A stretch of DNA of 64,000 bases, from the NCBI RefSeq assembly GCF_003788585.1, contig NZ_AYKG01000068.1, positions 1-64,000 on the forward strand. Direction: 5' to 3'. Both the position numbers and the translations under genes were made by a program. Each line of letters begins with the position of its first letter. The first letter of the stretch is position 1. This stretch comes from Salinisphaera japonica YTM-1. Its GTDB lineage: Bacteria > Pseudomonadota > Gammaproteobacteria > Nevskiales > Salinisphaeraceae. The notes beneath the pieces were generated by a model that was not told the DNA's origin, searched no databases, and saw nothing but the letters and a program-made list of their open reading frames with translations. Shown here in pieces: positions 7,234 through 46,590 of this stretch.

Positions 7234-7304
7234 GCCGTATCTTGACGCGGCGCGGCAAACCGCCGACGCCGCGTCATCGACGCTAGATATCATTTCGGCC
7301 AGAC

Positions 7305-7339
7305 AAAAAAAGCGGCGCTCATGGAGCGCCGCTTTTTTT
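7305..7339. terminator. Bidirectional terminator between convergent genes
   Basis: A perfect 16-bp inverted repeat, AAAAAAAGCGGCGCTC and its complement, around an ATG loop with A7/T7 ends. It serves both the SH3 lipoprotein gene (+) and der (-). Confidence 0.95.
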
Positions 7340-7363
7340 ATGCGGATTACATGGCCCGCACGC

Positions 7364-31619: not shown

Positions 31620-31835
31620 ATGTCCGAATCAACTGCATCTACCGCTTCTGCCGAGCGTCGCATCCTGCGGCGTCCCGAGGTCGAGGCCAAAACCGGCTTC
31701 AAGCGGGCCCATATCTACAACCTCATCAAACAAGGCCGATTTCCCAAGCCCATGCGCCTTGGCGTGCGCGCCGTCGGCTGGGATTCGCTCGAAATCGAGG
31801 CGTGGATCGCCGAACGGCTTAACGAGCGCGTCTGA
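31620..31835 (+). CDS. alpA: AlpA-family transcriptional activator
   Basis: A 71-aa MerR-like helix-turn-helix protein. It has 'RILRRPEVEAKTGFKRAHIY', 'QGRFPKPMRLGVRAVGWDS' and 'IEAWIAERLNE', as in phage P4 AlpA. Such proteins switch on integrase/excision or maintenance genes of integrated elements. The ATG at 31620 is preferred over an in-frame GTG at 31611 because AAGGAG (31606-31611) sits 8 bp before it. Confidence 0.85.
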   Translation: MSESTASTASAERRILRRPEVEAKTGFKRAHIYNLIKQGRFPKPMRLGVRAVGWDSLEIEAWIAERLNERV

Positions 31836-31870
31836 TATTGCTCCGTCCGAGAGCTTCGAGAGGCACCGCT

Positions 31871-32686
31871 ATGCATATGATCGCCATCGCCTCCAGCAAA
31901 GGCGGGGTCGGCAAGACGACCTTGACCGCCAATCTGGGCGGATTTCTAGCGCTTGCAGGTTATCGCGTCCTCATGGTCGATGCGGATATCCAGCCCACGC
32001 TGAGTTCGTATTACCCGTTCGATTATCATGCGGCCAGCGGGCTCTACGATGTCGTCACCGCGGGGACGATAGAGACGGCGATCAGCCGCACGAGCCTACC
32101 CAACCTGGATATCGTTATCTCGGACGATCCGGAGGGACGGCTTGAAAACTGGATCCTGCACACCCCCGATGGCCGAATCCGGCTGCGCCGTGCGCTCGCC
32201 AATGTCGATTACGACTTTGTCCTGATCGATACGCAAGGCGCGATCGGTCCGTTGCAGGATATCGGTGTACTCGCCGGCGATCTCCTGCTCTCGCCGATTC
32301 CGCCGGAAATCCTGAGTGCGCGGGAGTTCGCCCGCGGCACCCTGTCCATGCTGGAGCGTTTGCGGCCCATGCACATGCTGGGTGCGCCCGTCGGGCCCCT
32401 GTACGGGCTGTGCTATCGCATGGACCGCACGGTCGATGCCCGCCTGGTGGCGGACACGCTGCGGCAATCGACGTTTGCAGAAAGTCGGGGTGATATCTCG
32501 ATCCTCGATACCGTGGTACCGGCCACAGTGGCCTACCGCGAAGCCGCCAGTGCCCAAGTCCCAGTCCATGTCTGGGAGCCTCACCGTCGCGCTGGCACCG
32601 CACCGGCCGGGCTGGAGACCATGACGGCGCTCGTTCGCGAGCTGCTACCGCGAGTCGGCACGGCATCGGCGGGAGGTCGGCCATGA
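31871..32686 (+). CDS. parA: ParA/Soj-family ATPase
   Basis: A 271-aa partition ATPase. The deviant Walker A 'SSKGGVGKTTL' is at the N-terminus, Walker A' 'VLMVDADIQPTLSSY' follows, and Walker B 'FVLIDTQGAIG'. In related ICEs a soj-like ParA stabilises the excised circle. It overlaps parB by 4 bp. Confidence 0.9.
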   Translation: MHMIAIASSKGGVGKTTLTANLGGFLALAGYRVLMVDADIQPTLSSYYPFDYHAASGLYDVVTAGTIETAISRTSLPNLDIVISDDPEGRLENWILHTPDGRIRLRRALANVDYDFVLIDTQGAIGPLQDIGVLAGDLLLSPIPPEILSAREFARGTLSMLERLRPMHMLGAPVGPLYGLCYRMDRTVDARLVADTLRQSTFAESRGDISILDTVVPATVAYREAASAQVPVHVWEPHRRAGTAPAGLETMTALVRELLPRVGTASAGGRP

Positions 32687-34395
32687 GTCGCAAGCGCCCC
32701 ACCGCGGACCAGATGGACCAATTATTGTCACAGCCTCATTTTCGGCGCGACGACCCGAAAGCCAGCACCGATCCGTCCCATGCGCCGGTCACGACGACGC
32801 CGATGTTGGTCGACGTCGACCAGATCGTGCCGTACGACCGTAATCCGCGCCGCAGCCCGAACGATAAGCGCGAGAAGCTCAAGGCTTACATCCGAGAAAC
32901 CGGATTCAACCAGGTTCTGACGATTACGCAACGTCCCGACACCGACCAACCCGGGTTGTACATGATCGGCGTCGGCGGCAACACGCGGTTGCTCATTATC
33001 CAGGAACTTTGGCACGAGACGGGCGACGCGCGTTTCGAGCAGGTGTGGTGTCAATTCCAGCCCTGGACCGGCGAGACCCAGACGCTGGTGGCCCATATCC
33101 AGGACAACGATCTCCGCGGTGACCTGACCTTCATCGATCGCGCGATCGCGGTCCAGGAATTAAGAGCGATGCTCAAGGCCGAGTCTGGCGAGTCATTGTC
33201 GCAGCGGGCCCTACGCGATCGACTCAATGCGCTGGGCTATCAGATCGGCCGGACCATGATCGGCTGGTACGACTATACGGTCGACACCCTGTATCCGCTG
33301 ATTCCGACCGTACTGCAAGCCGGTATGGGGCGGACGACGATCGCCAAGATCCACGAACTGCAGCGGGCCTTTGCCAAGGCCTGGGCGTCGTTAGAACTCG
33401 GCGACGCCGACGAAGCCCATAGTCTGTTCGAGCAAACGCTACAGCGTCATGACGGCGACATGCTGGATCTCGACGCCCTGCGGCGGGATCTCGAGGAAGA
33501 ACTGTCCATCAGTGCGGACTGCGACATGCAACGCGCCAGTCTCGAGTTTGGGGGCGCCTTGTATGGGCGTTCGGATTCCAAAGTTGAGGCGGCGCCGACG
33601 TCGAATGCGACCGATCAACCGACCGAAGGCGAGTCATCGAACGGATCCACGACAGCGCCCGCCAACGAGACTGAGTCAACACCGTCGACAGACACCGGGT
33701 CGTCGCCAAATCAAACCGCATCGGCGACGACCCAGTCCACGGATCCCACCGACGCGAACGATCACAAGCGCTCTGCCCCGCCGGCGTCGACAGGGGGTAC
33801 GGCGGAAAAAAAGCCGGCCGAGGACGCCGCTTCACAGAGCGGCAACGCCGCGACACGTTCGGTGGAAGGGTCATCCGGTACGGATGCTCTGCCCCACGAT
33901 CTCAAGTCGCTACGCGCCCGGACATGGACGCTGGCCAGCCGTATTGCGCAGGGCTCGCGGCTCGGGGACGTGGTGCAGCCGCTCCAAACGGGTCTCGGAT
34001 TCCTGGTGGGCCCGATTCCCGTCGAGGTTCAGCAATCCTGGCATCCCGACATCGGTCGCAGCGCCATGTGCGTCTGGTGGCACCTGGCCACATTGGCCGA
34101 GCAATTCGCCCGTCACGGGCGGGCCTGCGAGGTCATGCCGACGGGTTGGACCAATCGGCCCATCGGCCAAGCCATGCGCCAGGCCCGTGACGGACAGCAA
34201 CCATTTTCACGCTGGCAGTGGGAACAAGCCGATCGCGATCTGTTCGCGGACGTGCCGCCGCTTGAGCCCAACGATATGGGCCCGGTGCTCTATCAAAGCT
34301 GGCCCGACCAACGTTGGGCCGATTGGATCCAACTCGTCGACACCTATCGGGAGATTTATCGCGCCACCGACGAGACGCCTTGGGGGGAACAGTAA
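32683..34395 (+). CDS. parB: ParB-family protein of PFGI-1-type ICEs
   Basis: A 570-aa DNA-binding partner of ParA. The ParB nuclease-like N-domain (~40-150, 'VDQIVPYDRNPRRSPN', 'MIGVGGNTRLLIIQEL') is followed by helical HTH regions (~160-260), a long acidic Ser/Thr/Asp low-complexity linker (~300-390) and a conserved ICE-type C-domain. The shape matches the PFGI-1 ParB family. It is the obvious candidate reader of the palindromes at 35.6-39.8 kb, though nothing in the sequence proves this. RBS GGGAGG. Confidence 0.88.
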   Translation: MSRKRPTADQMDQLLSQPHFRRDDPKASTDPSHAPVTTTPMLVDVDQIVPYDRNPRRSPNDKREKLKAYIRETGFNQVLTITQRPDTDQPGLYMIGVGGNTRLLIIQELWHETGDARFEQVWCQFQPWTGETQTLVAHIQDNDLRGDLTFIDRAIAVQELRAMLKAESGESLSQRALRDRLNALGYQIGRTMIGWYDYTVDTLYPLIPTVLQAGMGRTTIAKIHELQRAFAKAWASLELGDADEAHSLFEQTLQRHDGDMLDLDALRRDLEEELSISADCDMQRASLEFGGALYGRSDSKVEAAPTSNATDQPTEGESSNGSTTAPANETESTPSTDTGSSPNQTASATTQSTDPTDANDHKRSAPPASTGGTAEKKPAEDAASQSGNAATRSVEGSSGTDALPHDLKSLRARTWTLASRIAQGSRLGDVVQPLQTGLGFLVGPIPVEVQQSWHPDIGRSAMCVWWHLATLAEQFARHGRACEVMPTGWTNRPIGQAMRQARDGQQPFSRWQWEQADRDLFADVPPLEPNDMGPVLYQSWPDQRWADWIQLVDTYREIYRATDETPWGEQ

Positions 34396-34945
34396 TGCAG
34401 ACCAACGAATCGAATCTCACGCTCGCCACACTGATCTATGCCACCCATTGCCTGGAACAAGGCGATTGGGCGGTGTTGCGCGACCTGAATTTTGGTGAGC
34501 GGCACTCAAGGCGCTGCAGTTTTCCGACTTCCTGTCGGTGGCCGGGCGCATGGACGGCCATGTGCTGGATATCCGCCTTGACCGCGAGCGTTTCTGGCTC
34601 GTGTTGCAAGAAATGAAAGCCGAACGCGCCGCCGAAAAGCTCAAGACAGAGCTCGTCTGTCGCGAGGCACCGGTCGACATGATGCGGCAATTGTTCGGCA
34701 TGACCGATGGCCAGTACACCGCCCTGCGCCGGCGCTGTCGCCGCGGACGGCGCGGCGCCGGGCGTCCGGCCGAGCCCGACACCGACACCATGAACACGAT
34801 CTGGCGCGCCTGGCATCACCGGATGAACGGCAAAGCGCCCGCCTCGGCCGACGAATGGCTGAGGCTGTCCGATGACACCGGCACGGATTGTCGCACACTC
34901 TGGCGCTTCATCCGCGGTGCGAATGTATTAGAGCGCACATCATGA
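34395..34945 (+). pseudogene. DUF2857-family ICE gene with a frameshift
   Basis: The first frame opens 'MQTNESNLTLATLIYATHCLEQGDWAVL' and reads 'RDLNFGE', then derails. The protein continues in another frame as 'ALKALQFSDFLSVAGRMDGHVLDI' to the end, with DUF2857 features ('LFGMTDGQYTALRRRCR'). Adding one base at ~34500 (GAG C-G GCA to GAG CTG GCA) would restore a ~183-aa protein. No slippery heptamer is seen, so a real inactivation or a base-call error is more likely than programmed shifting. The start lies one base from the parB stop, and the 3' end overlaps the next gene (ATGA). Confidence 0.8.
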
Positions 34946-36516
34946 GCGGCGACCGGCCCCACCGGAACGACACGCTCGATTCCTATCTCAAACAGGCCGC
35001 ACACGATCTGGCGCAATCGAACAAGGCCCTGGGCGATGACGCCGAGGGCCTTTTGTTTTTGGGGGTGTGGCACCAGAGCTACCCCGCCATCCTCGTGCGG
35101 GATCCGTTTCTCAGTGACAGCGCGAAGGTTCAGTTTTTGCTTCTAATGCAAGAATCGAGCCAGAAACCGCACGACGCGATCGCCATGCCGTCTCTGACGC
35201 ATACCGCCCAGGTGCTGGGTCACGGTCGACGAACCGTGCATCGCGATCGCACTCTGCTGCGGATCTGTCGCTGGATCAGCCAACACAAGCGCGTACGCGA
35301 TCGCCGGGGGCGCTACTGCGGCAGTATCAACGCGATTCACAGCGAGCCCTGCGCGCTGGCCGATGCCAACCGACTCGACGCCACGTATTTGCAGCTGCTC
35401 GATCGCAGCAAGGGCGACGACGACCCGTATATCCGCAACGCCGCGCTCGCCGCGCTGGCGAGCATCGATCAGGCTCTGAATGCCGGGCACGATCCGCTGG
35501 AACCACCGGACCCAATGAATCGACGCATCGAGGCCGCGAAAGCCGTGCAGAGCGGTGGGGGGACGTTCTTCGATCTGCTGATGCCGGAAGGCGGCCGCAT
35601 CGCCAAGCAACATGATCCCAATAGCGCTGGCCACACTGTGGCCACCTCACCGAGAACGCCAAAATCTGCACTTGGGCAGCCCGAGCCCACTCATCCAAGT
35701 GCAAATTTTGTCGACAAATCCGCTCGCCACACTGTGGCCACCCCGTCTGCTGGTGCAAATTCTGCACCTGGATACCCAAGTGTAAATTCTGCACCTGGAG
35801 CGTCACAGCCAAGTGCAGATTTTGCACTTGGATCACAAGTTGTTGAAAATAAAAACGATCGGTTGAATTATCCACAAAATACAAAATTTGCACTTGGACC
35901 TACTTGTAGTAGTAATACAACTACTACTAACAAGAATGAACCAGAGTCTGCGCGCGCGAGTCGATCGAGCAGCCGGGCGATCGATTCTGGCAAAAGCAGT
36001 CCGCCGAACTCAGCGACGCAAGCCGCCGATGCCCTTCGATGGCCCGAGGCATTGCCCGCGAACGAGCGAACGCTGATCGAACGATCATTCGCGTCGATGC
36101 AGCTGACCGGCACGCAATGCCAGGAAGTGCTGGATGCCCTGGCACGCAAGCTCCAGGATCCGGACAACCCGATGCGCAGCCCGGTGGGCTATGCCGTCGC
36201 GCTCTGCAAGCGTGTCCGATCGGGTACTTTCCAGCCCGTCGGCGCGCCGCCCCGCCCATCCGGCACGGGTGGCAGCGGCGATGACAGCGGACCGCGTGGA
36301 CCGCGGGGCGAATTGACCGAACTCAGGCGCCAGATCCACAACCTGCAGAGCGAGATCAAGGGATTCGACGACAACCTCATCCCGTTCGCCCATCCCGAGA
36401 GTCAGCCGCATCTGGAAGCCCAGCGGGACCGGCTCTGTCAGGAACGCGACGCGCTCAAACAGCGTTACCAGGCCTTGCGGGGCGAGGATGGGGCGTCATG
36501 TCGCAAGCAAGCCTGA
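34942..36516 (+). CDS. STY4528-family ICE replication protein
   Basis: A 524-aa protein matching the pathogenicity-island replication family: 'AEGLLFLGVWHQSYPAILVRDPFLSD', an HTH-like 'SLTHTAQVLGHGRRTVHRDRTLLRI', 'VRDRRGRYCGSINAIHSEP' and 'DATYLQLLDRS'. A disordered middle (~230-370) is encoded by DNA that doubles as an iteron/AT-rich/DnaA-box region. A C-terminal domain and coiled coil end the protein. The ATG at 34942 overlaps the preceding stop and is preferred over an upstream in-frame start. It likely recruits host replication factors to the excised ICE. Confidence 0.85.
   Translation: MSGDRPHRNDTLDSYLKQAAHDLAQSNKALGDDAEGLLFLGVWHQSYPAILVRDPFLSDSAKVQFLLLMQESSQKPHDAIAMPSLTHTAQVLGHGRRTVHRDRTLLRICRWISQHKRVRDRRGRYCGSINAIHSEPCALADANRLDATYLQLLDRSKGDDDPYIRNAALAALASIDQALNAGHDPLEPPDPMNRRIEAAKAVQSGGGTFFDLLMPEGGRIAKQHDPNSAGHTVATSPRTPKSALGQPEPTHPSANFVDKSARHTVATPSAGANSAPGYPSVNSAPGASQPSADFALGSQVVENKNDRLNYPQNTKFALGPTCSSNTTTTNKNEPESARASRSSSRAIDSGKSSPPNSATQAADALRWPEALPANERTLIERSFASMQLTGTQCQEVLDALARKLQDPDNPMRSPVGYAVALCKRVRSGTFQPVGAPPRPSGTGGSGDDSGPRGPRGELTELRRQIHNLQSEIKGFDDNLIPFAHPESQPHLEAQRDRLCQERDALKQRYQALRGEDGASCRKQA
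35628..35644. repeat. Palindrome TGGCCACASTGTGGCCA, copy 1
   Basis: A perfect copy (central C) inside the replication gene, encoding 'GHTVA', 16 bp before the iteron cluster. Confidence 0.9.
35724..35740. repeat. Palindrome copy 2 (one mismatch)
   Basis: Central C, second base changed to C. It lies within the iteron cluster and encodes 'RHTVAT'. Confidence 0.85.
35868..35876 (+). promoter_or_regulatory. DnaA box TTATCCACA
   Basis: An exact consensus DnaA-binding 9-mer lies in the AT-rich stretch (about 35833-35890) next to the iteron-like palindromes. Confidence 0.65.
35903..35934. repeat. Stem-loop downstream of the iteron cluster
   Basis: CTTGTAGTAGT and ACTACT...ACAAG can pair around AATACA with a bulge, in a run of AGT/ACT triplets (encoding Ser/Thr/Asn). 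It is possibly a priming or structure element of the origin, or just coding repetition. Confidence 0.4.
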
Positions 36517-36707
36517 GTGCTGGCCACAGTGTGGCCAGCCGGCGAACGGCCCCTGCGACCCGCGTTGCGTCGGGTGGCGCTGAACCGATCGCGATGCGAG
36601 ATCGAACGCCCGTAGTGGATTCGATCGCAAATCGGTGGACACGTGATCGGCGGATTGATCGAACCCGAGTCGCCACGGCCGGGCAGACGCCGCACCGCGA
36701 CGAGTAG
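36498..36707 (+). CDS. Possible small ORF after the replication gene
   Basis: A 69-codon frame starting within the 3' end of the replication gene and spanning palindrome copy 3 ('SAGHSVASRRTAP'). There is only a weak ribosome site and no family resemblance, and the composition is Arg-rich and typical of spurious frames. Listed because it is the only candidate in the 36517-36882 gap, which otherwise holds palindromes 3 and 4. Confidence 0.2.
   Translation: MSQASLSAGHSVASRRTAPATRVASGGAEPIAMRDRTPVVDSIANRWTRDRRIDRTRVATAGQTPHRDE
36521..36537. repeat. Palindrome copy 3
   Basis: Perfect, central G, with the GC...GC outer bases, 4 bp after the replication gene stop. Confidence 0.9.
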
Positions 36708-36738
36708 ACCGAACAGCCCATTTTCGCCGCCATCGTGC

Positions 36739-36755
36739 TGGCCACAGTGTGGTCA
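36739..36755. repeat. Palindrome copy 4 (one mismatch)
   Basis: Central G, one C-to-T change in the right arm; intergenic, 127 bp before the PFL_4669-type start. Confidence 0.85.
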
Positions 36756-36882
36756 GCCCATATGCAAAAAATCCGTCGCCCCGCAGCCGGCGTTTTCTGC
36801 TGCGATACCGGCCATGCCGGATTTACTGTTGGTGGGGAACGCCCTATTCGCGACAGGCCGTCGCCTAAGCTCGGAGTCACCC

Positions 36883-37686
36883 ATGAGCGAACCTTCCCAA
36901 ACCACCGGGCCGGCGATCGTGCCCGGACGGCTGCGCAATTTTGTCGAGATGACCATCCAGACCCGTCAGGCACAACGGCTGGTGCAGGGCCGACGCGGTA
37001 CCGACGGCAAACCGCCGATCATCGGTTTGTATCGCTATGGCGCCATGGTGCGCACGATCTGGTCGGGTGCAACCCGCGACGATCCCTACGCCGACTGGGT
37101 TCTGCTGCAGGTCGAGCAGGCACTACATGAATCCAAGGACGAGATCGCGACCTTGAAGCAGACCATCGAAGCCGACATGGCCCGGGTGGCGGCGATGAAG
37201 GTGGGCCTGGCGCATTCGCTTGAGCCCGCGAGGGTCGAGCTCACCTTTTCCAACCCCTACGGCTACATGGGCGCTTGGCTACTCGCTGATTTCGATGAGC
37301 TCGTGCTGGCGGTGCTGACGGCGCGCCATGTCGGGCTGATCAATCGGGATGCGTCCGAGCGCATGCTCGGCGAGGGCGGTCGCGCCGTTCGCCGGGCCTA
37401 TGCCACAGCCCAGGGGTACCGGGCGACCGCGGTCAAGCGCGAAGATCTGCGCGGCGGCACGCGGCGCGCCGAGCGCGCCCAACAAGCCATGGGGGAACTG
37501 CCACAGGCCGTGCTGGACGGTGACCTCCGGCCCGAGCACGCACCGGTAATCGAGGGCGTGCAGCCGTCGAACAGCCACAGCGACGATGCTGGCCACACTG
37601 TGGCCAGCCACGATGACGCGGCGACGGATGAAGCGACTGACACAGATCCCACGACCGACGAGCGTGGTAACGACGATGCGTCGTAG
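36883..37686 (+). CDS. ICE protein, PFL_4669 family
   Basis: A 267-aa protein of the ICE-specific family defined by PFL_4669, found beside replication genes. Recognisable are 'LRNFVEMTIQTRQAQRLVQGR', 'PPIIGLYRYGAMVRTIWSGA', 'DPYADWVLLQVE' and 'NPYGYMGAWLLADFDELVLAVL'. Biochemical function is unknown. Start chosen at the ATG with GGAG 7 bp upstream. The last ~30 residues are a disordered acidic tail that contains palindrome copy 5 ('AGHTVAS'). Confidence 0.85.
   Translation: MSEPSQTTGPAIVPGRLRNFVEMTIQTRQAQRLVQGRRGTDGKPPIIGLYRYGAMVRTIWSGATRDDPYADWVLLQVEQALHESKDEIATLKQTIEADMARVAAMKVGLAHSLEPARVELTFSNPYGYMGAWLLADFDELVLAVLTARHVGLINRDASERMLGEGGRAVRRAYATAQGYRATAVKREDLRGGTRRAERAQQAMGELPQAVLDGDLRPEHAPVIEGVQPSNSHSDDAGHTVASHDDAATDEATDTDPTTDERGNDDAS
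37590..37606. repeat. Palindrome copy 5
   Basis: Perfect, central C, within the PFL_4669-type tail and 69 bp upstream of the next gene start. Confidence 0.9.
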
Positions 37687-38203
37687 GCAAGCAATCGGCT
37701 CAGTTGAATCTGACGAAGCCGTGGCCGGCCGATTTGACGTAGCCCCTTTAAAGGGCCCTTTAAGGGTAAGGGAGGCGCGCCAGCGTCTGGCGGCCCTCGA
37801 GCAGGTGATACGGGACGGCGAAGCCGAGGGAACCCGGCTATGTGAATCATTCGGCAAACAGTTTCCGACGGCCCCGGCCAAGATCGTGCGATACAACGAT
37901 CGGAGCCTGACGTTTTACCGCTGGCGCCAATCCAGTGCCCGGCGGTGGGGCAACCCAAGCACGACGGCGATCAGTCTGACGGGCCAGGCCGGTCGGGCGT
38001 TGCTGGCACGCGTTCCGATCTCGGCACGTGGTCACTGGCTCAATTACGAGCGTCGGCGCATCTATCTCAATATGCGCCTGTCGACGGCGTCCTATGAACT
38101 CTATCGCCTGCAGGACTGGCTCGACGGTCTGGATGCGATCAAGGCGATCGAACGCGACGGCCTGTCGGTCGATGCGCCTGACAACCAGAACGAGCGCGGA
38201 TAA
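37676..38203 (+). CDS. DUF3158-family ICE protein
   Basis: About 175 aa. Matches the DUF3158 pattern: 'PLKGPLRVREARQRLAALEQVI', 'LTFYRWRQSSARRWG', and the C-terminal 'YERRRIYLNMRLSTASYELYRLQDWLD'. The family sits next to PFL_4669 and SSB genes in this ICE class; function unknown. The start is uncertain: the ATG at 37676 overlaps the upstream gene, and a GTG at 37732 is an alternative. Confidence 0.72.
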   Translation: MRRRQAIGSVESDEAVAGRFDVAPLKGPLRVREARQRLAALEQVIRDGEAEGTRLCESFGKQFPTAPAKIVRYNDRSLTFYRWRQSSARRWGNPSTTAISLTGQAGRALLARVPISARGHWLNYERRRIYLNMRLSTASYELYRLQDWLDGLDAIKAIERDGLSVDAPDNQNERG

Positions 38204-38279
38204 CCCATCACGCCATCCAAGACCGGACCCATCCGTTCGGCCTAACGATCTGAACGAACATCGACGGGTATTCCGAGGG

Positions 38280-38296
38280 TGGCCACACTGTGGCCA
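38280..38296. repeat. Palindrome copy 6
   Basis: Perfect, central C, intergenic, 43 bp upstream of the 87-aa gene. Confidence 0.9.
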
Positions 38297-38339
38297 CCCA
38301 TGATTCGAGCGATGACCGGGCGCGACAACGGAGCGGACG

Positions 38340-38603
38340 ATGCCGCGACTGAACATGCCTGATGAATGGGACCGCGCCGAACTCACAGGACGTATGTATG
38401 AAGCCATCGACCTTGAGACGGCCATTCGGGACGGGCGCTTCGCCTCCTTGGGCGAGCTCGCGGATTGTCTCACCGATCAATCCGAACTCATGAACCAAGC
38501 GCTTCGATGCCGGACTTGGATCATGCACGCGGACAAGCCCGGTTGCCCCGATCTGCATCGGACGATTGCCCGAACGCGACCGCGCGCGCGTTCGCCGATC
38601 TAA
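38340..38603 (+). CDS. Small ICE protein of unknown function
   Basis: 87 aa, with a good GGAG ribosome site. Helical with an acidic N-half ('DEWDRAELTGRMYEAIDLETAIRDG') and a conserved-looking 'DCLTDQSELMNQALRCRTW'. I do not recognise the family. It lies between the DUF3158 gene and ssb, so a role in DNA maintenance is plausible but unproven. Confidence 0.55.
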   Translation: MPRLNMPDEWDRAELTGRMYEAIDLETAIRDGRFASLGELADCLTDQSELMNQALRCRTWIMHADKPGCPDLHRTIARTRPRARSPI

Positions 38604-38707
38604 ATTCCGCGCGCCATCCGCGTGATTCATTGTTGTACCGCAACGCGCTCAGGACGAGGCTGATGCTGTCGAATAGCGACACTCACCCTGACTAACGGAG
38701 CGAACCG

Positions 38708-39157
38708 ATGTCGAACTTATTTACCGCTCGGGGCAATCTCGCTGCGGCCCCCGAACTCAAGACGGTCACCGTCAACGGCGAAGACCGCCAGGTCGCCGAA
38801 ATGCGCCTGTATTGCGATCGTGCCGTGCCGGACGGCGACGGCGGTTTCAAGGACAAGGGCGGATTTTGGCTCAATGTATCGCGCTGGGGCATCGCCGGTA
38901 CGCATGCCGCTCGCGTGCTCGATAAGGGCGATCGCATCAAGGTCGAAGGCACGCTGGTACAGAACAGTTGGGAGAAGGATGGCGACAAGTTTTCCCGGCT
39001 CGAACTGACGGCCGATGATGTCACCCTGGATTTGTCACGCGTCGAATCGATCGCGCGCAAGCCGCGAAACCGACCGACGAACGGAACCGATGACAGTGCT
39101 GGCCACACTGTGACCACCCCGGAAGACGGCGCCCAACACGCCGCACCCGTCGGTTGA
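38708..39157 (+). CDS. ssb: Single-stranded DNA-binding protein (ICE type)
   Basis: A 149-aa OB-fold protein ('NLFTARGNLAAAPELKTV', 'FWLNVSRWGIAGTHAARVLDKGDRIKVEGTL'). Coats ssDNA during conjugative transfer or replication. It lacks the acidic DDDIPF-type tail of housekeeping SSB; instead its C-terminus is disordered and contains palindrome copy 7 ('AGHTVTT'). Confidence 0.88.
   Translation: MSNLFTARGNLAAAPELKTVTVNGEDRQVAEMRLYCDRAVPDGDGGFKDKGGFWLNVSRWGIAGTHAARVLDKGDRIKVEGTLVQNSWEKDGDKFSRLELTADDVTLDLSRVESIARKPRNRPTNGTDDSAGHTVTTPEDGAQHAAPVG
39100..39116. repeat. Palindrome copy 7 (one mismatch)
   Basis: Central C, one G-to-A change, inside the SSB tail codons. Confidence 0.85.
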
Positions 39158-39186
39158 TTCGTCCCATAGCCCGAGAGCTGATGCGC

Positions 39187-39203
39187 TGGCCACAGTGTGG
39201 CCA
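39187..39203. repeat. Palindrome copy 8
   Basis: Perfect, central G, intergenic, 39 bp upstream of the Cys-rich gene. Confidence 0.9.
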
Positions 39204-39242
39204 GCCTGATTTTCGGCCCGTTGGATACCGGAGGACACCACT

Positions 39243-39488
39243 ATGACCCCTGGAAACGCTGCGCCCCACGCCCGATCGTGTCGCGCGTGCGGCTGCACCG
39301 ACGCGGACTGTACCGGCTGCGTCGAACGCTCCGAGCAACCGTGCTATTGGGTGGGACCCGACTTGTGCTCGGCCTGTGACGATTGGGCTGGCCACACTGT
39401 GGCCAGCCGAGCCAACGCCAACCGGCAAGAACAACCCTTTAATCATCATGCAATTCACGATGCGCGGAATCATCTCGAAAATTTTTAA
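39243..39488 (+). CDS. Small Cys-rich zinc-ribbon-like protein
   Basis: 81 aa with nine Cys in the first ~50 residues: 'SCRACGCTDADCTGCVE' then 'PCYWVGPDLCSAC'. This spacing matches a motif often found in phage and ICE proteins and suggests Zn binding. RBS GGAGG is 7 bp upstream. The part after the Cys domain contains palindrome copy 9 ('AGHTVAS') and overlaps the next gene. Function unknown. Confidence 0.65.
   Translation: MTPGNAAPHARSCRACGCTDADCTGCVERSEQPCYWVGPDLCSACDDWAGHTVASRANANRQEQPFNHHAIHDARNHLENF
39389..39405. repeat. Palindrome copy 9
   Basis: Perfect, central C, within the Cys-rich gene and 42 bp before the next predicted start. Confidence 0.9.
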
Positions 39489-39807
39489 GGCGCATCGCAG
39501 CGCGCCGCCTGGCGTGGTCATCAGCGAGACTGATATCGACGCTGTACTTAATCATTTGCGGCGTCTGCCTTATCGGACGGCAACGCCCGCGAGTTGGGAC
39601 AGACAGCGCCTTTTGCTCCTGATTCGCGAATGCATCGGAAAGAAACCCGTTATCGGGCAATTCAATGAGATCGCACCGGGTGTGTTCGCTGTTATCAAGC
39701 CGATGGGCGTGGATCTGACGAATTACCACGATTCCCACGGTCGGTACCAAGTCTGGCTCATGATTCGATCGTGGGGAACGGACCTGGCTCGGATTACCGA
39801 TCTTTAA
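39448..39807 (+). CDS. Unknown ICE protein, lower GC than its neighbours
   Basis: About 119 aa from 'MQFTMRGIISKIFKAHRSAPPG'. Contains 'VISETDIDAVLNHLRRLPYR' and 'ECIGKKPVIGQFNEIAPGVFAVIKPMGVDL'. I do not recognise a family. Base composition is visibly more AT-rich than the flanking genes, which suggests separate acquisition. It overlaps the end of the Cys-rich gene in another frame. Confidence 0.5.
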   Translation: MQFTMRGIISKIFKAHRSAPPGVVISETDIDAVLNHLRRLPYRTATPASWDRQRLLLLIRECIGKKPVIGQFNEIAPGVFAVIKPMGVDLTNYHDSHGRYQVWLMIRSWGTDLARITDL

Positions 39808-39821
39808 GGCAAATGGCAGGC

Positions 39822-39838
39822 TGGCCACAGTGTGGCCA
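39822..39838. repeat. Palindrome copy 10
   Basis: Perfect, central G with GC...GC outer bases, intergenic, 14 bp after the preceding stop and upstream of topB. The last copy of the array. Confidence 0.9.
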
Positions 39839-40046
39839 GCCTGCTCGCCGGACGGCGCTTGCCCCTTACAGAAGCACCCAAGATCGGCGAATATGTGCCT
39901 ATATTAAGCAAAATTGAGTCGAAAAGTCGATTTCTATCCGGTATCAGGTGTGGGAAGCGAAATTACACGCTAGGCTGCACCCATTTTTCCGCTCGCAGTG
40001 CAGTCGGGCTGCGATGCTGTCGGCGTCACTCATTCCCGACAGACCC

Positions 40047-42053
40047 ATGGCTGGCGACACCGTCTATCTCTGCGAAAAGCCGTCCCAGGCCCGCGACATC
40101 GCCCGGATCCTCGGCGCGACCCACAAGACCAAGCACTATCTCGCCGGTTCCGGCGTGACCGTGACCTGGTGTTTCGGCCATCTACTGGAAATGGCCGCGC
40201 CTGATTGCTACGGCGACGAGTACAAACGCTGGTCGCTAGATACGCTGCCGATCATCCCGGACCCGTGGCGCCTCGATGTCCGGCCCAAGGTCAAGGCGCA
40301 GTACAACGCCATCGAACAATTGCTAGGCAAGGCTCGGCATGTCGTAGTCGCGACCGACGCCGACCGCGAGGGCGAAACGATCGCCCGCGAGCTCTTGGAT
40401 CGCTGCGCGTACCGGGGCCGCATATCGCGGCTGTGGCTGTCCGCGCTCGATGACGCCAGTATCCGCAAGGCCCTGGGCCGCCTGAAAGACGGCGCCGAGA
40501 CCGAAGCGCTCTATCACGCCGGCCTCGGCCGGGCCCGCGCGGATTGGCTGGTCGGCATGAACCTCACCCGCGCCTATACCGCCATGGCGCGCTCCCAGGG
40601 CCACGATCGGCTACTACCCGTGGGCCGGGTCCAGACACCGACGCTGCGGCTTGTCGTCGATCGCGATCGTGCGATCGAATCATTCAAGCCGGTTCCGTAT
40701 TGGGATCTGGTGGCGACACTGGCGACCGATGCAGGCGAGACGTTCGACGCCCAGTGGCAGCCGCCGGCGGACATGACCGACGCCAAGGGCCGCTGTCTCA
40801 ATGAAGAGGCGGCCCGACGCATGGCGCAACAGATCGAGGGCGACGCTGCCCGAGTAACAGCCGCCGAAACGACGCGCAAGCGCGCGTCGGCGCCTTTGCC
40901 TTACGATCTCGGCACGCTGCAGCAGGACGCCAATAAAACCGCTGACATGGGCGCACAGGCCGTATTGAGCACGGTGCAGGCGCTGTACGAGACGCACAAG
41001 GCGGTCACCTATCCGCGAACCGACTGCCGCTATCTGCCGACCAGCATGCAGGGTGAAGCGGATGCCGTGCTTGACGCGATGGCGCGCACCGACCCGCGGG
41101 TGGCGGGCGCAGTCGAGGGGGCGAATACGTCGCGCCAGGCGCGCGTGTTCAACGACGGCAAGATTACGGCGCACCACGCCATGATCCCCACGACCGAGCC
41201 GGCCGATCTCGGCCGGATGTCCGACACGGAGCGGCTGATCTATCGGATGATCCGGACACGCTATCTGGCGCAGTTCTATCCCGATCACGAATACGACCGC
41301 ACTGTCCTTGCGCTCGACATGGGCGGCGCGGCGTTTCGCGCCACCGGCAATGGGGTCGTCGTTGCCGGCTGGAAGGCTGTCACAGGCCATGCCGGCGCCG
41401 ATGAGGCGGATCAAGCCGGCAATGCGCGTCTGCCGATAGTGCGCGAGGGCGACCGCTGCCCGGTCCAGGGCGCGGCGGTTCAGGCCAAACAGACCCAGCC
41501 ACCGGCGCACTACACCGAAGGCACATTGCTTGCGGCCATGAAAAATGTCGCCTCGCTGGTGACGGACGAACGGCTCAAAAAGATCCTCAAGGACACCGCC
41601 GGCCTGGGCACCGAAGCCACACGTGCCGGCATCATATCCACGCTGATCGAGCGCCGGTTTCTGGCCCAAAAGAAAAAGAAACTGGTCGCGACCGACGGCG
41701 GCCGGGCCTTGATCGACATGCTCCCGCGGGCCATCACGAACCCGGACACCACGGCGGTATGGGAACAGGCCCTGGATGAAATCAGTGCTGGGCGCATGAC
41801 GCTCGATGATTTTGTCACGCGGCAAACGCAGTGGATACACAAGGCGGTCAGCCAAGTGCAGCAGCATGGTTTGAATGTGCCGCAAGGCATCGCAACCGGG
41901 CCGCAGAAGCAATGTCCCGAGTGCGACAAGCCCATGCGCAAACGCAAGAGCCGGCACGGGGCGTTCTGGGGTTGCACCGGCTATCCGGACTGCAGGGCCA
42001 CCGTCCAGATCGGCGGCGGCAAGAAAGGCCGCCAGAAGAAACAGGCGACGTGA
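40047..42053 (+). CDS. topB: DNA topoisomerase III
   Basis: Type IA topoisomerase carried by ICEs and plasmids, decatenating DNA during replication or transfer. The 668-aa protein has a Toprim domain ('VYLCEKPSQARDIARIL', 'VVVATDADREGETIARELL'), 'LPVGRVQTPTLRLVVDRD', catalytic Tyr (~321) in 'AVTYPRTDCRYL', 'GTEATRAGIISTLIERRF', and a C-terminal zinc finger ('CPECDKPMRKRKSRHG', 'CTGYPDC'). An ATG 33 bp upstream is an alternative start. Confidence 0.93.
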   Translation: MAGDTVYLCEKPSQARDIARILGATHKTKHYLAGSGVTVTWCFGHLLEMAAPDCYGDEYKRWSLDTLPIIPDPWRLDVRPKVKAQYNAIEQLLGKARHVVVATDADREGETIARELLDRCAYRGRISRLWLSALDDASIRKALGRLKDGAETEALYHAGLGRARADWLVGMNLTRAYTAMARSQGHDRLLPVGRVQTPTLRLVVDRDRAIESFKPVPYWDLVATLATDAGETFDAQWQPPADMTDAKGRCLNEEAARRMAQQIEGDAARVTAAETTRKRASAPLPYDLGTLQQDANKTADMGAQAVLSTVQALYETHKAVTYPRTDCRYLPTSMQGEADAVLDAMARTDPRVAGAVEGANTSRQARVFNDGKITAHHAMIPTTEPADLGRMSDTERLIYRMIRTRYLAQFYPDHEYDRTVLALDMGGAAFRATGNGVVVAGWKAVTGHAGADEADQAGNARLPIVREGDRCPVQGAAVQAKQTQPPAHYTEGTLLAAMKNVASLVTDERLKKILKDTAGLGTEATRAGIISTLIERRFLAQKKKKLVATDGGRALIDMLPRAITNPDTTAVWEQALDEISAGRMTLDDFVTRQTQWIHKAVSQVQQHGLNVPQGIATGPQKQCPECDKPMRKRKSRHGAFWGCTGYPDCRATVQIGGGKKGRQKKQAT

Positions 42054-42824: not shown

Positions 42825-44045
42825 ATGCGATACCGCACCCTTCCGATCGCCCTGATAATCGCGGCCTCGCTGACGCCGGTCGCCGGCTGCAGCGATAACG
42901 ACGGGTCCGCCAACGATCAAAGTCAGGGCACAGACCTCGCGGCCGAGCAGAGCGCGGATTCGTCAGGCCAGACGTCAGACAACGGCTCGCAAGACAGTTC
43001 GCCGATTCCAGTCAATGATCCGAACAAGACCGCCGACACGGCGAGCACATCACCCCAATCGAAACCCGCGCCGCCGGCGCCGGACCGGGTCCAGCAACTG
43101 GCCCAGCAGATCGCCAGCATCAAGCAGGCCAATCAGAAGCGCCTGGATCAACAGGCCCAGCGCATCGATGCGCTCGAGCAACAGGTCGCCGCGCTGACCA
43201 AGCGCCTGCGCCAACGGCCGCAGCCGACATCGGCACACGCGAAGCCGGACCAGCAAAAGACCAACCCTGCCAAGACGCAGGCGCCGGATGCGGTATTCCC
43301 GCAATCGAGCGACAGCGCCGCGTCACGGGAATCCAAATCGGACGCGGGTCAGTCCGCCGATGCAAGTAACAACGACGAATCAGCCGACGACAGCGACGGC
43401 GAACCTGCTTCGTCTGATTCCCCGCCTGCATCAGGCAACGTCACCGGCCCGAATATCGTCACGCACTGCCCGGCCCACGGTGACGCAGCCGATCAATTCG
43501 ATGTGTTCTTTCAGGCCGCGACCGGCGACGCGCTGGATGCCGCCGCCGATCAGGTCCAATCGGCCGGGCTGTCGGATTGGTTCGCCCGCGCACGCACCGG
43601 CCGGCTCTACGTGGGCCGTTACGGCAATTGCCCGCTGGCCGCACGTCGTCGCGACGATGTGCATGAGCGCACCGGCCTGGCACTGAATATCCGGGCAGTC
43701 GCCCCGCATCACGCGGGCACATCCAAGAGCACGGATCACAGCCCCGCGCACGACGACGGCGCGGCCGACAACGCCGCTGCGTCGATCCGACGCGCGGCCA
43801 CTGAACCGGTCCAACCGGTCGTGACCAACGCGCCCTTCGAGGTCATTGGCGTCGAGCTGCGCGGTACGCATCACTTTCTCGGCGTTGCGCCGCACGGCGT
43901 CTCTCGTCTGAGTGGCGTGACGTGGCTGGCGCCCGGCAATGCCTATGGCACCTGGACACTGCGCGCCATTCGCACCGATGCCGGGACCGCCACCTTTGCG
44001 CATGGCGGTCGCACGATCGCCGTGGCCCTGCCGCGGCGAGGTTGA
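42825..44045 (+). CDS. Lipoprotein with coiled coil and SPOR-like segment
   Basis: 406 aa. Lipobox 'TPVAGC' (Cys ~22), Ser/Asp-rich linker, a coiled coil (~85-130, 'VQQLAQQIASIKQANQKRLDQ'), a second linker, a segment like a SPOR repeat (~220-290, 'DQFDVFFQAATGDALDAAAD', 'RLYVGRYG'), and a C-terminal PilP/GspC-like stretch ('APGNAYGTWTLRAI'). These domain readings are by eye. It lies in the transfer region just before the PFL_4693 gene, 3 bp apart. Confidence 0.6.
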   Translation: MRYRTLPIALIIAASLTPVAGCSDNDGSANDQSQGTDLAAEQSADSSGQTSDNGSQDSSPIPVNDPNKTADTASTSPQSKPAPPAPDRVQQLAQQIASIKQANQKRLDQQAQRIDALEQQVAALTKRLRQRPQPTSAHAKPDQQKTNPAKTQAPDAVFPQSSDSAASRESKSDAGQSADASNNDESADDSDGEPASSDSPPASGNVTGPNIVTHCPAHGDAADQFDVFFQAATGDALDAAADQVQSAGLSDWFARARTGRLYVGRYGNCPLAARRRDDVHERTGLALNIRAVAPHHAGTSKSTDHSPAHDDGAADNAAASIRRAATEPVQPVVTNAPFEVIGVELRGTHHFLGVAPHGVSRLSGVTWLAPGNAYGTWTLRAIRTDAGTATFAHGGRTIAVALPRRG

Positions 44046-44048
44046 GCC

Positions 44049-44804
44049 ATGCATCGACACCGGATAAGCCGCGGCGCGCTGGCTCTTGGTATGGCCGCGG
44101 CAGTGAGCCTGCCTGCCGCCGCACAGAACCAGACGGCGCCGGCCATGCTCAAGCGGGCCGAGACCACCGACCGGGCCACCCAATCACGCCAGACGCGCGA
44201 GACCGCGATTGCCAAGCAGCGGGCCAAGCAGTGGAATCTATCGGTCACTGAATGGGAGCGCTACAAGACGCTGCTCAAGGGCATCGACGGCTATCGCTCC
44301 GACAAGCTGGATCCGTTGACCGAACTCGGGATCCGGGCACGCTCGCGTGCCGAACGGCGGCGTTACGCGCGCAAACTCGCCCGTGTCGAGCATGACCGAG
44401 CGCAGCGGATCATGGCCTTTCAAAAGACCTATGACCAGGTCTTTTCGCAGCTGTATCCCCAGCAAACGCCGGTCAACGCGGATGGCATGACACAAGCCCT
44501 CATGTCGGGCCAGCAGACCGCTGCCAAGCTCGGTCTCGATGGATCGGCGCGCAAGGCCGTGTTCGTGCGCCTGCATGACTGCAACGCCTGTCGCACCAGG
44601 GTCAAGCAGCTAGCCGCGGCCGATACGCCGATGGACATTTTCGTCGTCGATGCCGATTCCGACGATGCGATCCGGTCCTGGGCGATGGCCGTCGGCCTGG
44701 ATCCCAAGCGCGTGCGCGGCGGCACAATTACGCTCAACCACGCGCCGAAAGCCGTGGCCAAACAGCTGGCCGACGAGTCACTGCCGCGCGTGATCAATCG
44801 CTGA
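44049..44804 (+). CDS. ICE protein, PFL_4693 family
   Basis: A 251-aa periplasmic protein (signal peptide ending 'SLPAAAQ'). It has the family signature 'LSVTEWERYKTLLKG', 'LDPLTELGIRARSRAERRRYA', and a C-terminal thioredoxin-like half with 'RLHDCNACRTRVKQLA'. The CxxC pair suggests redox or metal interaction in secretion apparatus assembly; function unproven. Confidence 0.85.
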   Translation: MHRHRISRGALALGMAAAVSLPAAAQNQTAPAMLKRAETTDRATQSRQTRETAIAKQRAKQWNLSVTEWERYKTLLKGIDGYRSDKLDPLTELGIRARSRAERRRYARKLARVEHDRAQRIMAFQKTYDQVFSQLYPQQTPVNADGMTQALMSGQQTAAKLGLDGSARKAVFVRLHDCNACRTRVKQLAAADTPMDIFVVDADSDDAIRSWAMAVGLDPKRVRGGTITLNHAPKAVAKQLADESLPRVINR

Positions 44805-44808
44805 TCCC

Positions 44809-45513
44809 ATGCGGGCCCGGCTGCTCATCTGGCTGGTCTGCGGCGTCGCCCCGGCGGCGATCGCCGCCGGACACACCGTGCCGACGGCGTATGCGAACGC
44901 CGCGCACGCGCGCCAGGTACCGCCTAGAATGCTCTATGCCCTGTCACTGACCGAATCGGCGGCGACGCTGTCATTCGGTCGCCGGCCCTGGCCGTGGACG
45001 CTCAACATCGCCGGCCGCGGCGAGCGCTATGCCAGCCGCGACGCGGCCTGCCAAGCGCTAACGGCCGCGCTCACGCACACGACAATCGTCGACGTCGGCC
45101 TCGGCCAGCTCAACGTGCATTGGCAACAGAGGCTGTTCGGAACCGATGGCCGTTTCGCCGATCCCTGCGCGGCACTCAATCCCTACGCCAACCTGGATGC
45201 CGCGGCGGCGATTCTGTATCGCTGCCACGAGCGGACCGGTGGCAGTTGGATCGTCGCCGCGGGCTGCTATCACCGGCCGGCCGGCGGCCCCCCGGCCGCG
45301 CGCTATCGCGACGCCTTCTCTCGGGAACTCGCGCGACTGCGCGACGACGGCCTGCGGGTCGCGACCGGACACACACCCGGCCCGCCCCCTATCGGCGCCC
45401 AGCCGGCCGCGGCGGTCGGAACGAAGGCCGAGAACCCGTCCACGGCGACCGCGAGCCGCGTGACCTGGATCAATCCCACACACGACAACCGGAGCAGCCA
45501 TGGGCTTGACTAG
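44809..45513 (+). CDS. T4SS lytic transglycosylase
   Basis: 234 aa. A signal-like N-terminus is followed by a lysozyme-like SLT fold: catalytic Glu in 'MLYALSLTESAA', then 'GLGQLNVHW' and 'YANLDAAAAILYRC'. It opens peptidoglycan locally for assembly of the transfer apparatus. Overlaps the next gene by 14 bp. Confidence 0.85.
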   Translation: MRARLLIWLVCGVAPAAIAAGHTVPTAYANAAHARQVPPRMLYALSLTESAATLSFGRRPWPWTLNIAGRGERYASRDAACQALTAALTHTTIVDVGLGQLNVHWQQRLFGTDGRFADPCAALNPYANLDAAAAILYRCHERTGGSWIVAAGCYHRPAGGPPAARYRDAFSRELARLRDDGLRVATGHTPGPPPIGAQPAAAVGTKAENPSTATASRVTWINPTHDNRSSHGLD

Positions 45514-46033
45514 CCGAACGCTGTCATGGGTCTTGATCGCGAGCGTGGCGCCCCTGGCGTCGGCCCAGGCCGGGCTCACCGTGATCGGCGACCACGGCGG
45601 ACAATCGGCGCGTGCCTACTACGCCCCGATCGCCGGGGCCGGCATCGATGAACAACACGCCTACAGCGCGCGCGCCGAAGCCATGAGCCGCGGCCCCGTC
45701 AAAGAAGCGGATCTATTGCCGGTCCAATCGAATCGACTCACGCCCGGCGCGGTAACCGCCCGCAAGCTCACGCTCCCGTCCGGGATGACGCCGTTTTTTA
45801 TTATCGGTGCGGACCGGATGTCGTTGCGCTGGATCAAACAGCGCGCCGCCCGCCTGCGCGATCTGCACGCCGTGGGCCTCGTGGTCAACGTCGGGTCCGC
45901 CGCTCAATTGACGCAGTTGCGCGCGGTCGGCGGCGGCCTGGTGATGCGACCCGTGGCTGGCAACGACATCGCCCGGCGGCTGGATCTGGCCCATTACCCC
46001 GTGCTCATCACACCCAAAGGAATTCAGCAATGA
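45500..46033 (+). CDS. ICE protein, PFL_4695 family
   Basis: A 177-aa exported protein (signal peptide to 'ASAQA'). Matches the family with 'GLTVIGDHGGQSARAYYAPI', 'LTLPSGMTPFFIIGADRMSLRWI' and 'LVVNVGSAAQLTQLRAV'. Function unknown; always found between the transglycosylase and TraD genes. Confidence 0.85.
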   Translation: MGLTSRTLSWVLIASVAPLASAQAGLTVIGDHGGQSARAYYAPIAGAGIDEQHAYSARAEAMSRGPVKEADLLPVQSNRLTPGAVTARKLTLPSGMTPFFIIGADRMSLRWIKQRAARLRDLHAVGLVVNVGSAAQLTQLRAVGGGLVMRPVAGNDIARRLDLAHYPVLITPKGIQQ

Positions 46034-46590
46034 GCCAACACGCGAGACAACCCATCGATCTGTACCGCGTTTATCACCATGACGCCGAGGCGGCGACACG
46101 GTTTCTCGGCGACGTTGTCGACATCGTCGACCGCGTCGAGCAAACACTGGGTTATGAGGGCCTGTCATCGGCCGCGCTGCAATGGGAGACCGCCGATCTG
46201 TATGCCCTGCAGCGGCTCGCCCTGCGCTATGCCGAAACCGCGCTCGACAAGAGCGACTGGATCACCCTGCATCGTTATGTCGCCCAACTGGCGGTGGCCG
46301 ACGGCGCCCAGAGTCCATGGCCATGGCAGGCCATGGATCTGATGGGTTTCGCGCTATCCGACTACCTGGCGGATCGTCCCGCTGCCGGCGATCCGCTGTT
46401 GCACGAGATCGTCGCTGTCACCCGTCAGGGCGCGGCTGACGCGATCCATGACGTGTATCGGCGCTCTCGTTGCAATCTCTATGACGCGATCCGCAGCGAC
46501 CGGGCACAAGACGGGATGCTGGATGATCTGTGTGAGACGGTCATCGCCCGCCGGCCCAATCGAGCCACCGAGACCCCGGCGGGGACCTGA
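46030..46590 (+). CDS. Unknown ICE protein between PFL_4695 and TraD
   Basis: 186 aa, soluble, helical, no signal peptide. Contains 'ADLYALQRLALRYAETALDKSDW' and 'MDLMGFALSDYLADR'. No family recognised; the position is that usually held by a poorly conserved PFL_4696-type gene. It overlaps its upstream neighbour by 4 bp and touches traD, so it belongs to the transfer operon. Confidence 0.6.
   Translation: MSQHARQPIDLYRVYHHDAEAATRFLGDVVDIVDRVEQTLGYEGLSSAALQWETADLYALQRLALRYAETALDKSDWITLHRYVAQLAVADGAQSPWPWQAMDLMGFALSDYLADRPAAGDPLLHEIVAVTRQGAADAIHDVYRRSRCNLYDAIRSDRAQDGMLDDLCETVIARRPNRATETPAGT

Follow-up and report, generated by a model that had tools for sequence, protein, structure and literature searches.

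Palindromes scattered over the replication module of a Salinisphaera ICE as predicted sites of the element's own ParB

Three palindromes that lie around and within two small genes between ssb and topB of an ICE of Salinisphaera japonica YTM-1, together with their seven sister copies in the window (the whole stretch of 64,000 nucleotides analysed here), are most probably operators, i.e., parS-like sites, of the ParB protein encoded by the ICE itself. The copies are clustered and follow a scheme shared with other ICEs, the sequence of the site covaries with ParB between lineages, with natural switches of specificity in some of them, and the cargo found among the copies is variable.

The palindromes are located in a module with the gene order parA, parB, DUF2857, STY4528-like rep, acaB/PFL_4669, a 205-aa gene, an 87-aa ORF, ssb, Cys81, unk119 and topB, which we take to be of the SPI-7/PFGI-1/ICEclc kind, the family names coming from profile matches. 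The gene of a ParA-type ATPase (31823..32683, + strand, as are all genes given below), which matches ParA-type ATPase families, directly precedes parB (32683..34395), so that the window has the adjacent parA and parB of a ParABS system. The product of parB, the predicted binder, belongs to TIGR03764 (ICE_PFGI_1_parB), and its description as an element-encoded ParB-fold protein with an HTH follows from this match, from fold hits and from the helices of its model. Foldseek ranks Noc, KorB and ParB highest, with partial overlap and a best E of 1e-5, and in the AlphaFold model (mean pLDDT 88-91 for residues 161-200 and 74 for residues 201-210) R190 stands at the start of helix 190-212 (33250..33318), the recognition helix with the covarying residues R190 and W195, the other helix being formed by residues 174-183. 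A profile search of PDB sequences with ParB returned weak matches to the N-domain only, with the recognition-helix region not aligned. By our own alignment of the helix with a Caulobacter sequence, residues 190 and 195 of the ICE ParB presumably correspond to residue 173 and N178 of Caulobacter ParB.

Further downstream are the gene of the STY4528-like replication protein (34888..36516; 113 bits, below the family cut-off of 130) and the acaB/PFL_4669 family gene (36883..37686, with a deduced start). The former contains, at 35650-35945, iteron-like repeats, the sole TTATCCACA of the window (35868) and an inverted repeat of the TAGTAGTAGT/ACTACTACTA type, and similar lineage-specific arrays are present at the same place in the STY4528 gene of three relatives (L036, L045 and L046). 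From their sequence, these arrays look as if the origin sat within the initiator gene.

The palindrome reads TGGCCACA-S-TGTGGCCA, where S is C or G, and occurs ten times in 4.2 kb (35628-39838), in seven perfect copies and three with one mismatch. When the window was scanned at up to three mismatches, 11 matches were obtained, ten of them with at most one mismatch, compared to a mean of 0.22 for shuffled sequence, and the rest of the genome outside this cluster yields two hits only, both with two mismatches. Within the order, 5 of 85 genomes contain the exact word, and these five belong to the same genus; the word also occurs in three viral contigs. L046, from another MAG, carries 13 copies at up to two mismatches, 12 of them perfect. 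As in the window, where sites are found both before genes and inside ORFs, the copies are multiple and symmetric, and flank position 1 is symmetric as well in 27 of 42 copies (15.7 expected). In the window (coordinates without strand), palindromes 1 (35628..35644) and 2 (35724..35740, one mismatch) lie inside the STY4528 gene, beside and within its iteron-like array, respectively; palindromes 3 (36521..36537) and 4 (36739..36755, one mismatch) are upstream of acaB; palindrome 5 (37590..37606) falls within the end of acaB, 18 nt ahead of where the 205-aa gene is assumed to begin; palindrome 6 (38280..38296) is 43 nt before the 87-aa ORF (38340-38603); and palindrome 7 (39100..39116, one mismatch) is in the tail of ssb (38708..39157). 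The last three predicted ParB sites are palindrome 8 (39187..39203), 39 nt before the ATG of Cys81, palindrome 9 (39389..39405), inside the Cys81 ORF and 42 nt before the ATG of unk119, and palindrome 10 (39822..39838), downstream of unk119 and 209 nt before topB (40048..42053). Among the clade members compared, palindrome 9 is present only in the window and in genome G011; a counterpart of palindrome 10 before topB is found in L046 and, with two mismatches, in L037. L036 and L037 have a decayed-looking 87-aa ORF with a perfect palindrome still in front of it, which suggests that the sites are kept for more than that gene. A hairpin function was considered and set aside: the copies are related to each other and several are asymmetric.

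In distant ICEs, no palindrome with exact 7-nt arms is present three or more times at any of the loci L048-L072, and it was this lack of a repeated window-type word that led to a lineage-specific scheme. A de novo search of distant ICEs found, in some of them, pairs of other palindromes just before acaB, and further examples came from genomes of the class and phylum. Most palindromes of distant ICEs fit, exactly or as near variants, a common 17-bp scheme, TG-N4-CA-S-TG-N4-CA, which is found upstream of acaB/PFL_4669 in lineage-specific versions and often in arrays, with spacings of 39 bp (L147), about 50 bp (L148) and 57 bp (L163 and L169). A perfect S-centred 17-mer palindrome is present within 500 nt upstream of the acaB domain at 27 of 56 distinct acaB loci, compared to a mean of 0.34 of 56 for base-shuffled sequence and to 41 of 1255 other 500-nt blocks of the same loci; 23 of the 27 begin with TG, and the other 29 loci have no such palindrome within that distance. 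Of 47 palindromes, 45 have C or G as the central base. In L163 and L169, plasmids of P. aeruginosa and P. veronii, the 57-bp arrays before PFL_4669 (7139-7554 and 7098-7684, respectively) hold one predicted ParB site per repeat. At loci to which no site had been assigned, a rescan for sites fitting both bases predicted from ParB found none in L162, L165, L066, L069, L154, L156, L161, L042 and L058 and one weak candidate in L160. Close to the start of acaB, three loci without a TG..CA site (L135, L162 and L165) carry a palindrome of another kind, CTATCCCC-A-GGGGATAG or CGGTCCCC-A-GGGGACCG. The viral contigs contain one AcaB relative.

The lineage-specific versions of the site could be compared with the proteins encoded next to them. 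Operator words were assigned to each locus before the ParB and AcaB segments were examined, and 1238 variable columns of ParB, STY4528, AcaB and DUF2857 from 21 lineages were scanned for covariation with the bases of the site. The top column for base n3 is ParB R190 (z 7.72, next 5.23) and the top column for base n5 is ParB W195 (z 7.13, next 5.37); with L045 left out, both columns are still high (z 6.92 and 8.30, respectively). An A at n3 accompanies Q190, a G accompanies R190 or H190, and a C or T accompanies any other residue at this position; at n5, G is found with R195, T with Q195, T or C with K195, and C with W195 (T in L045). The three n3 classes fit 30 of 30 loci with seven changes on the tree, purity at n5 is 28 of 30, and residues 190 and 195 each rank first among 1199 columns. 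When changes were counted on a ParB tree from which the HTH had been left out, six branches were found to carry a change of both n5 and residue 195, a number equalled by none of 196 comparable ParB columns; for n3 the raw same-branch count is unremarkable (3 of 9), as 47 of 130 other columns do as well.

The same correspondence is seen as natural switches between close relatives. The ParB proteins of L225 and L228 are 98.3% identical and differ within residues 130-245 at three positions, E171D, K195R and I200L, and n5 in their arrays is T in 7 of 8 copies (K195) versus G in 9 of 12 (R195). In L226 and L227 (91.3% identity; five differences within residues 130-245), K195R is the sole difference within residues 170-208, and the half-sites have T at n5 in 10 of 10 cases versus G in 14 of 16, one T-type copy remaining at the edge of the L227 array. 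L045 has Q190 and a pair of ATTA sites before acaB, whereas its clade has R190 and GCCA; several GCCA sites are retained in L045 despite the Q190 of its ParB. L123, the sole examined locus outside the clade with the word of the window, has R190-T191 and W195 in common with it. The ParB of L229 is 85.6% identical to that of L226 overall, differs from it at 36 of 115 residues of the DNA-binding region and has H190; its DNA-binding domain looks replaced, and its operator word is changed and asymmetric, the two halves differing at n3 (G versus T).

The covariation also bears on the possibility that the palindromes are operators of AcaB/PFL_4669, which would regulate its own gene from the sites before it and control the neighbouring genes. 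The site scheme does recur just upstream of acaB, PF08900 is named Transcriptional regulator AcaB, the AcaB of IncC plasmids is called a transfer activator (PMC11493245), and an AcaB column heads the scan for n6, which, like n4, is dominated by deep phylogeny. However, two residues of the ParB helix give the best explanation of n3 and n5, the positions with several changes on the tree, and the AcaB of L045 is 85% identical to that of the window, yet the site that precedes it differs. We consider such a role of AcaB unlikely.

The rule relating residues 190 and 195 to n3 and n5 was fixed before it was applied to 40 held-out loci from genomes. A site is present at 13 of them, with n3 right in 8 (L229 being counted here by its left half-site only) and n5 right in 9; L230, L231, L232 and L212, which has one weak site, fail at both bases, and L205 fails at n3. 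The remaining 27 loci have no site, 20 of them encoding Q190/R195 and three lacking a usable ParB. Among eight loci from named plasmids, six have a full ParB and four of these six have a site, two having none; n5 is right in all four, and n3 is consistent in all four by the majority word, with A at n3 in only 4 of 8 copies in L163. Arrays that depart from the code of residues 190 and 195 are found before acaB in L230 (TGTGTACA), L231 (TGTAAACA, 10 similar copies) and L232 (TGTTAACA). Covariation and natural switches, set against these misses at held-out loci, indirectly suggest that the specificity of the site is set by the recognition helix of the HTH.

Replication offers another explanation for the sites before acaB, namely that they are iterons of a replication origin bound by the Rep protein STY4528 and not by ParB. 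In PFGI-1, four 46-bp repeats and an inverted repeat before PFL_4669 are described as part of a putative oriV (PMC2647930), and the 57-bp arrays of the P. aeruginosa and P. veronii plasmids occupy that position too, but STY4528 columns top neither the n3 nor the n5 scan, and the STY4528 gene of the window holds a separate set of repeats with a DnaA-box-like 9-mer, which makes this explanation quite unlikely.

The two short genes that the preliminary description placed between ssb and topB are indeed there: an 81-aa ORF, Cys81 (39243..39488), and a 119-aa ORF, unk119 (39448..39807), which overlap by 41 nt, the tail of Cys81 reading through palindrome 9. The distances of 39 and 42 nt agree with its estimate that a palindrome precedes each gene at about 40 bp. 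Cys81 has eight Cys residues (positions 13, 16, 18, 23, 26, 34, 42 and 45), not nine as had been counted, in a mini-domain of the form CRxCGCTxxDCxxC...DLCSAC. It has no match in NCBIfam, Pfam, PHROGs or PADLOC, these searches assigning it to no described zinc-binding family; a similar Cys spacing and motif also occur in ORFs of genomes G055 and G036.

The deviating base composition ascribed to the second gene was confirmed as well: the GC content of unk119 is 0.539, compared to a mean of 0.634 for the window, and a value this low is found in 2.6% of 360-nt windows. Together with its sparse distribution (2 of 85 genomes), this composition fits a recent capture. NCBIfam, Pfam, PHROGs and PADLOC give unk119 no name, there is no match in phages and none was confirmed in viral contigs, and it belongs to an unnamed family of about 105 aa on proteobacterial plasmids. 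It is matched by 38 plasmid records, 22 of which cover at least 80% of the query, and an alignment of nine sequences, in which unk119 is 36-62% identical to eight relatives from Azonexus, Yersinia, Delftia, Burkholderia, Vibrio, Pandoraea, Aeromonas and Serratia, extends over most of its length with 14 invariant columns. Several of the relatives have no listed gene in the plasmid collection. One relative follows a ParB gene on a plasmid of Yersinia that also has korA and kfr genes, and another, in Serratia, is near psiB and an antirestriction gene. A single-sequence AlphaFold model of unk119 (pLDDT 40) was unusable.

The interval was compared in G011, Salinisphaera hydrothermalis C41B8, a relative from the same genus (L039/L045), L046, G004 (L037) and GH4 (L036/L047). 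Cys81 and unk119 lie between ssb and topB in the window and in G011. L039/L045 have a Cys remnant with the start of the motif, by eye fused to a piece resembling a different gene of about 300 aa that occupies the gap of L046 (12325-13239). The gap of L037 contains other DNA and what by eye looks like a transposase gene, and in L036 other DNA extends to the contig end. Relatives of the L046 gene are found on 41 plasmid records, including those of Pseudomonas, Escherichia, Enterococcus and Lactiplantibacillus. In other elements, a lipoprotein gene and an osa homologue lie between ssb and topB of ICEHin1056 (PMC3739013), and crpP lies between ssb and topA of P. aeruginosa pY89. The ssb-topB gap is thus, judging by its differing content among relatives, an insertion or accessory hotspot.

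Nucleotide matches of the window to L045, L046 and L037 stop inside ssb at 39039-39068, leaving 119-148 nt to palindrome 8, and are found again from 39983-40041 on, 145-203 nt beyond palindrome 10; ssb protein matches extend to residue 139-146 of 149. The preliminary description had viewed the genes as swappable cargo delimited by the repeats and proposed the comparison of the interval among related ICEs. That comparison upholds a differing gene content but not the delimitation, since no junction at a palindrome was seen in the relatives compared, at a resolution limited by divergence that may have carried intergenic DNA past detection. It is very unlikely that the palindromes are recombination or cassette borders at which ssb-topB genes are exchanged: the content of the interval varies by lineage, palindromes flank it in the window, G011 and L046, and nucleotide matches stop 32-61 nt before palindrome 7, but no palindrome junction was seen at this resolution, the homology with L045 continues beyond palindrome 8, where residues 11-30 of Cys81 still find a match, core genes contain copies of the palindrome, and the site varies in step with ParB. 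With copies in the coding sequence of core genes and with this covariation of the site and the ParB recognition helix, the palindromes look like protein-binding sites, not cassette borders.

On a larger scale, a 10-nt gap at 34501 and one base (40566) distinguish the window from G011 up to 43382, where divergence begins. At 43382-47700 the window is diverged from L044, the ICE of G011, after near-identity over 34.5-43.4 kb, which points to mosaic exchange among ICEs.

Physical binding by ParB, repression and partition are what we infer from these sequence patterns. A single ParB dimer would bind each palindrome, with R190 at the start of each recognition helix reading G at n3 and W195 placed over n5. 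The site or its array stands before acaB in many relatives, and in the Salinisphaera ICE clade it would have spread over the rep-acaB-ssb-topB module. From its sites ParB may repress transcription, as KorB does on RK2 (PMC11790492); where a site lies about 40 nt ahead of a gene, as with Cys81, unk119 and the 87-aa ORF, it would overlap or adjoin the promoter. Cys81 and unk119 are accessory genes of the ssb-topB gap, and, because a predicted ParB site lies about 40 nt before both starts, ParB probably represses the two of them while the ICE is quiet, a suggestion drawn from position. After excision, partition with ParA may use the same sites.

The ParB-site reading accounts for the scattered palindromes without cassette exchange. 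Its novelty is a predicted ParB site for this ICE family, the arrays before PFL_4669 having previously been read as a putative origin: no paper found names such a site in its title or at the start of its abstract, which is weak evidence, and the excerpt of PMC6812849 concerning parA-shi of ICEclc names no site for this ParB. We are evenly divided on a broader proposal, according to which SPI-7/PFGI-1 ICEs would constitute a diversifying ParB-parS system with their own 17-bp sites before acaB in many lineages, read mainly via residues 190 and 195 and drifting together with them; in the Salinisphaera elements the site would have expanded into a KorB-like regulon, bringing genes captured between ssb and topB under the control of ParB, and the lineage codes would separate the partition of co-resident ICEs. 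If the code is true, the window-type ParB should prefer TGGCCACA-S-TGTGGCCA over TGATTACA-S-TGTAATCA, and R190Q should shift the preference towards A at n3. A largely readable protein-DNA code and near-isogenic natural switches make the ParB function in this ICE family directly testable, and the code could allow the prediction of ICE-ICE compatibility.

Several known systems resemble the one proposed here. Jalal et al. (PMC7383237) showed a bond to guanine 1 from R173 of Caulobacter ParB and one to adenine 1 from the equivalent Gln of Noc. As in that switch, R would read G and Q would read A in the ICE proteins, where residue 190 starts the recognition helix; unlike in that switch, the exchange is between ICE lineages, and residue 195 with n5 provides a second reading position. 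The dispersal of the sites over the module can be likened to that of KorB operators on RK2 and of ParB sites on IncC plasmids. KorB of the IncP plasmid RK2 is also a ParB-fold protein, its OB operators, of which RK2 has 12 (PMC10954446), are also odd palindromes with a central C or G, and the OB oligo of KorB holds TTTAGCGGCTAAA (PMC11790492), but the sequence is different and has 13 bp and not 17, and the ICE sites are predicted and clustered in the replication module. The IncC ParB likewise has multi-copy sites, 14 parS inverted repeats that are mostly intergenic with four inside ORFs (PMC10954446); their core, TTTCACATGTGAAA, has no central base, in contrast to the ICE sites, and they are established by experiment, with binding demonstrated by EMSA for three probes (PMC10954446), whereas the ICE sites are predicted solely from covariation. 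Finally, the putative oriV of PFGI-1 occupies the same place and consists of iterated inverted repeats, which are reinterpreted here as predicted ParB sites.
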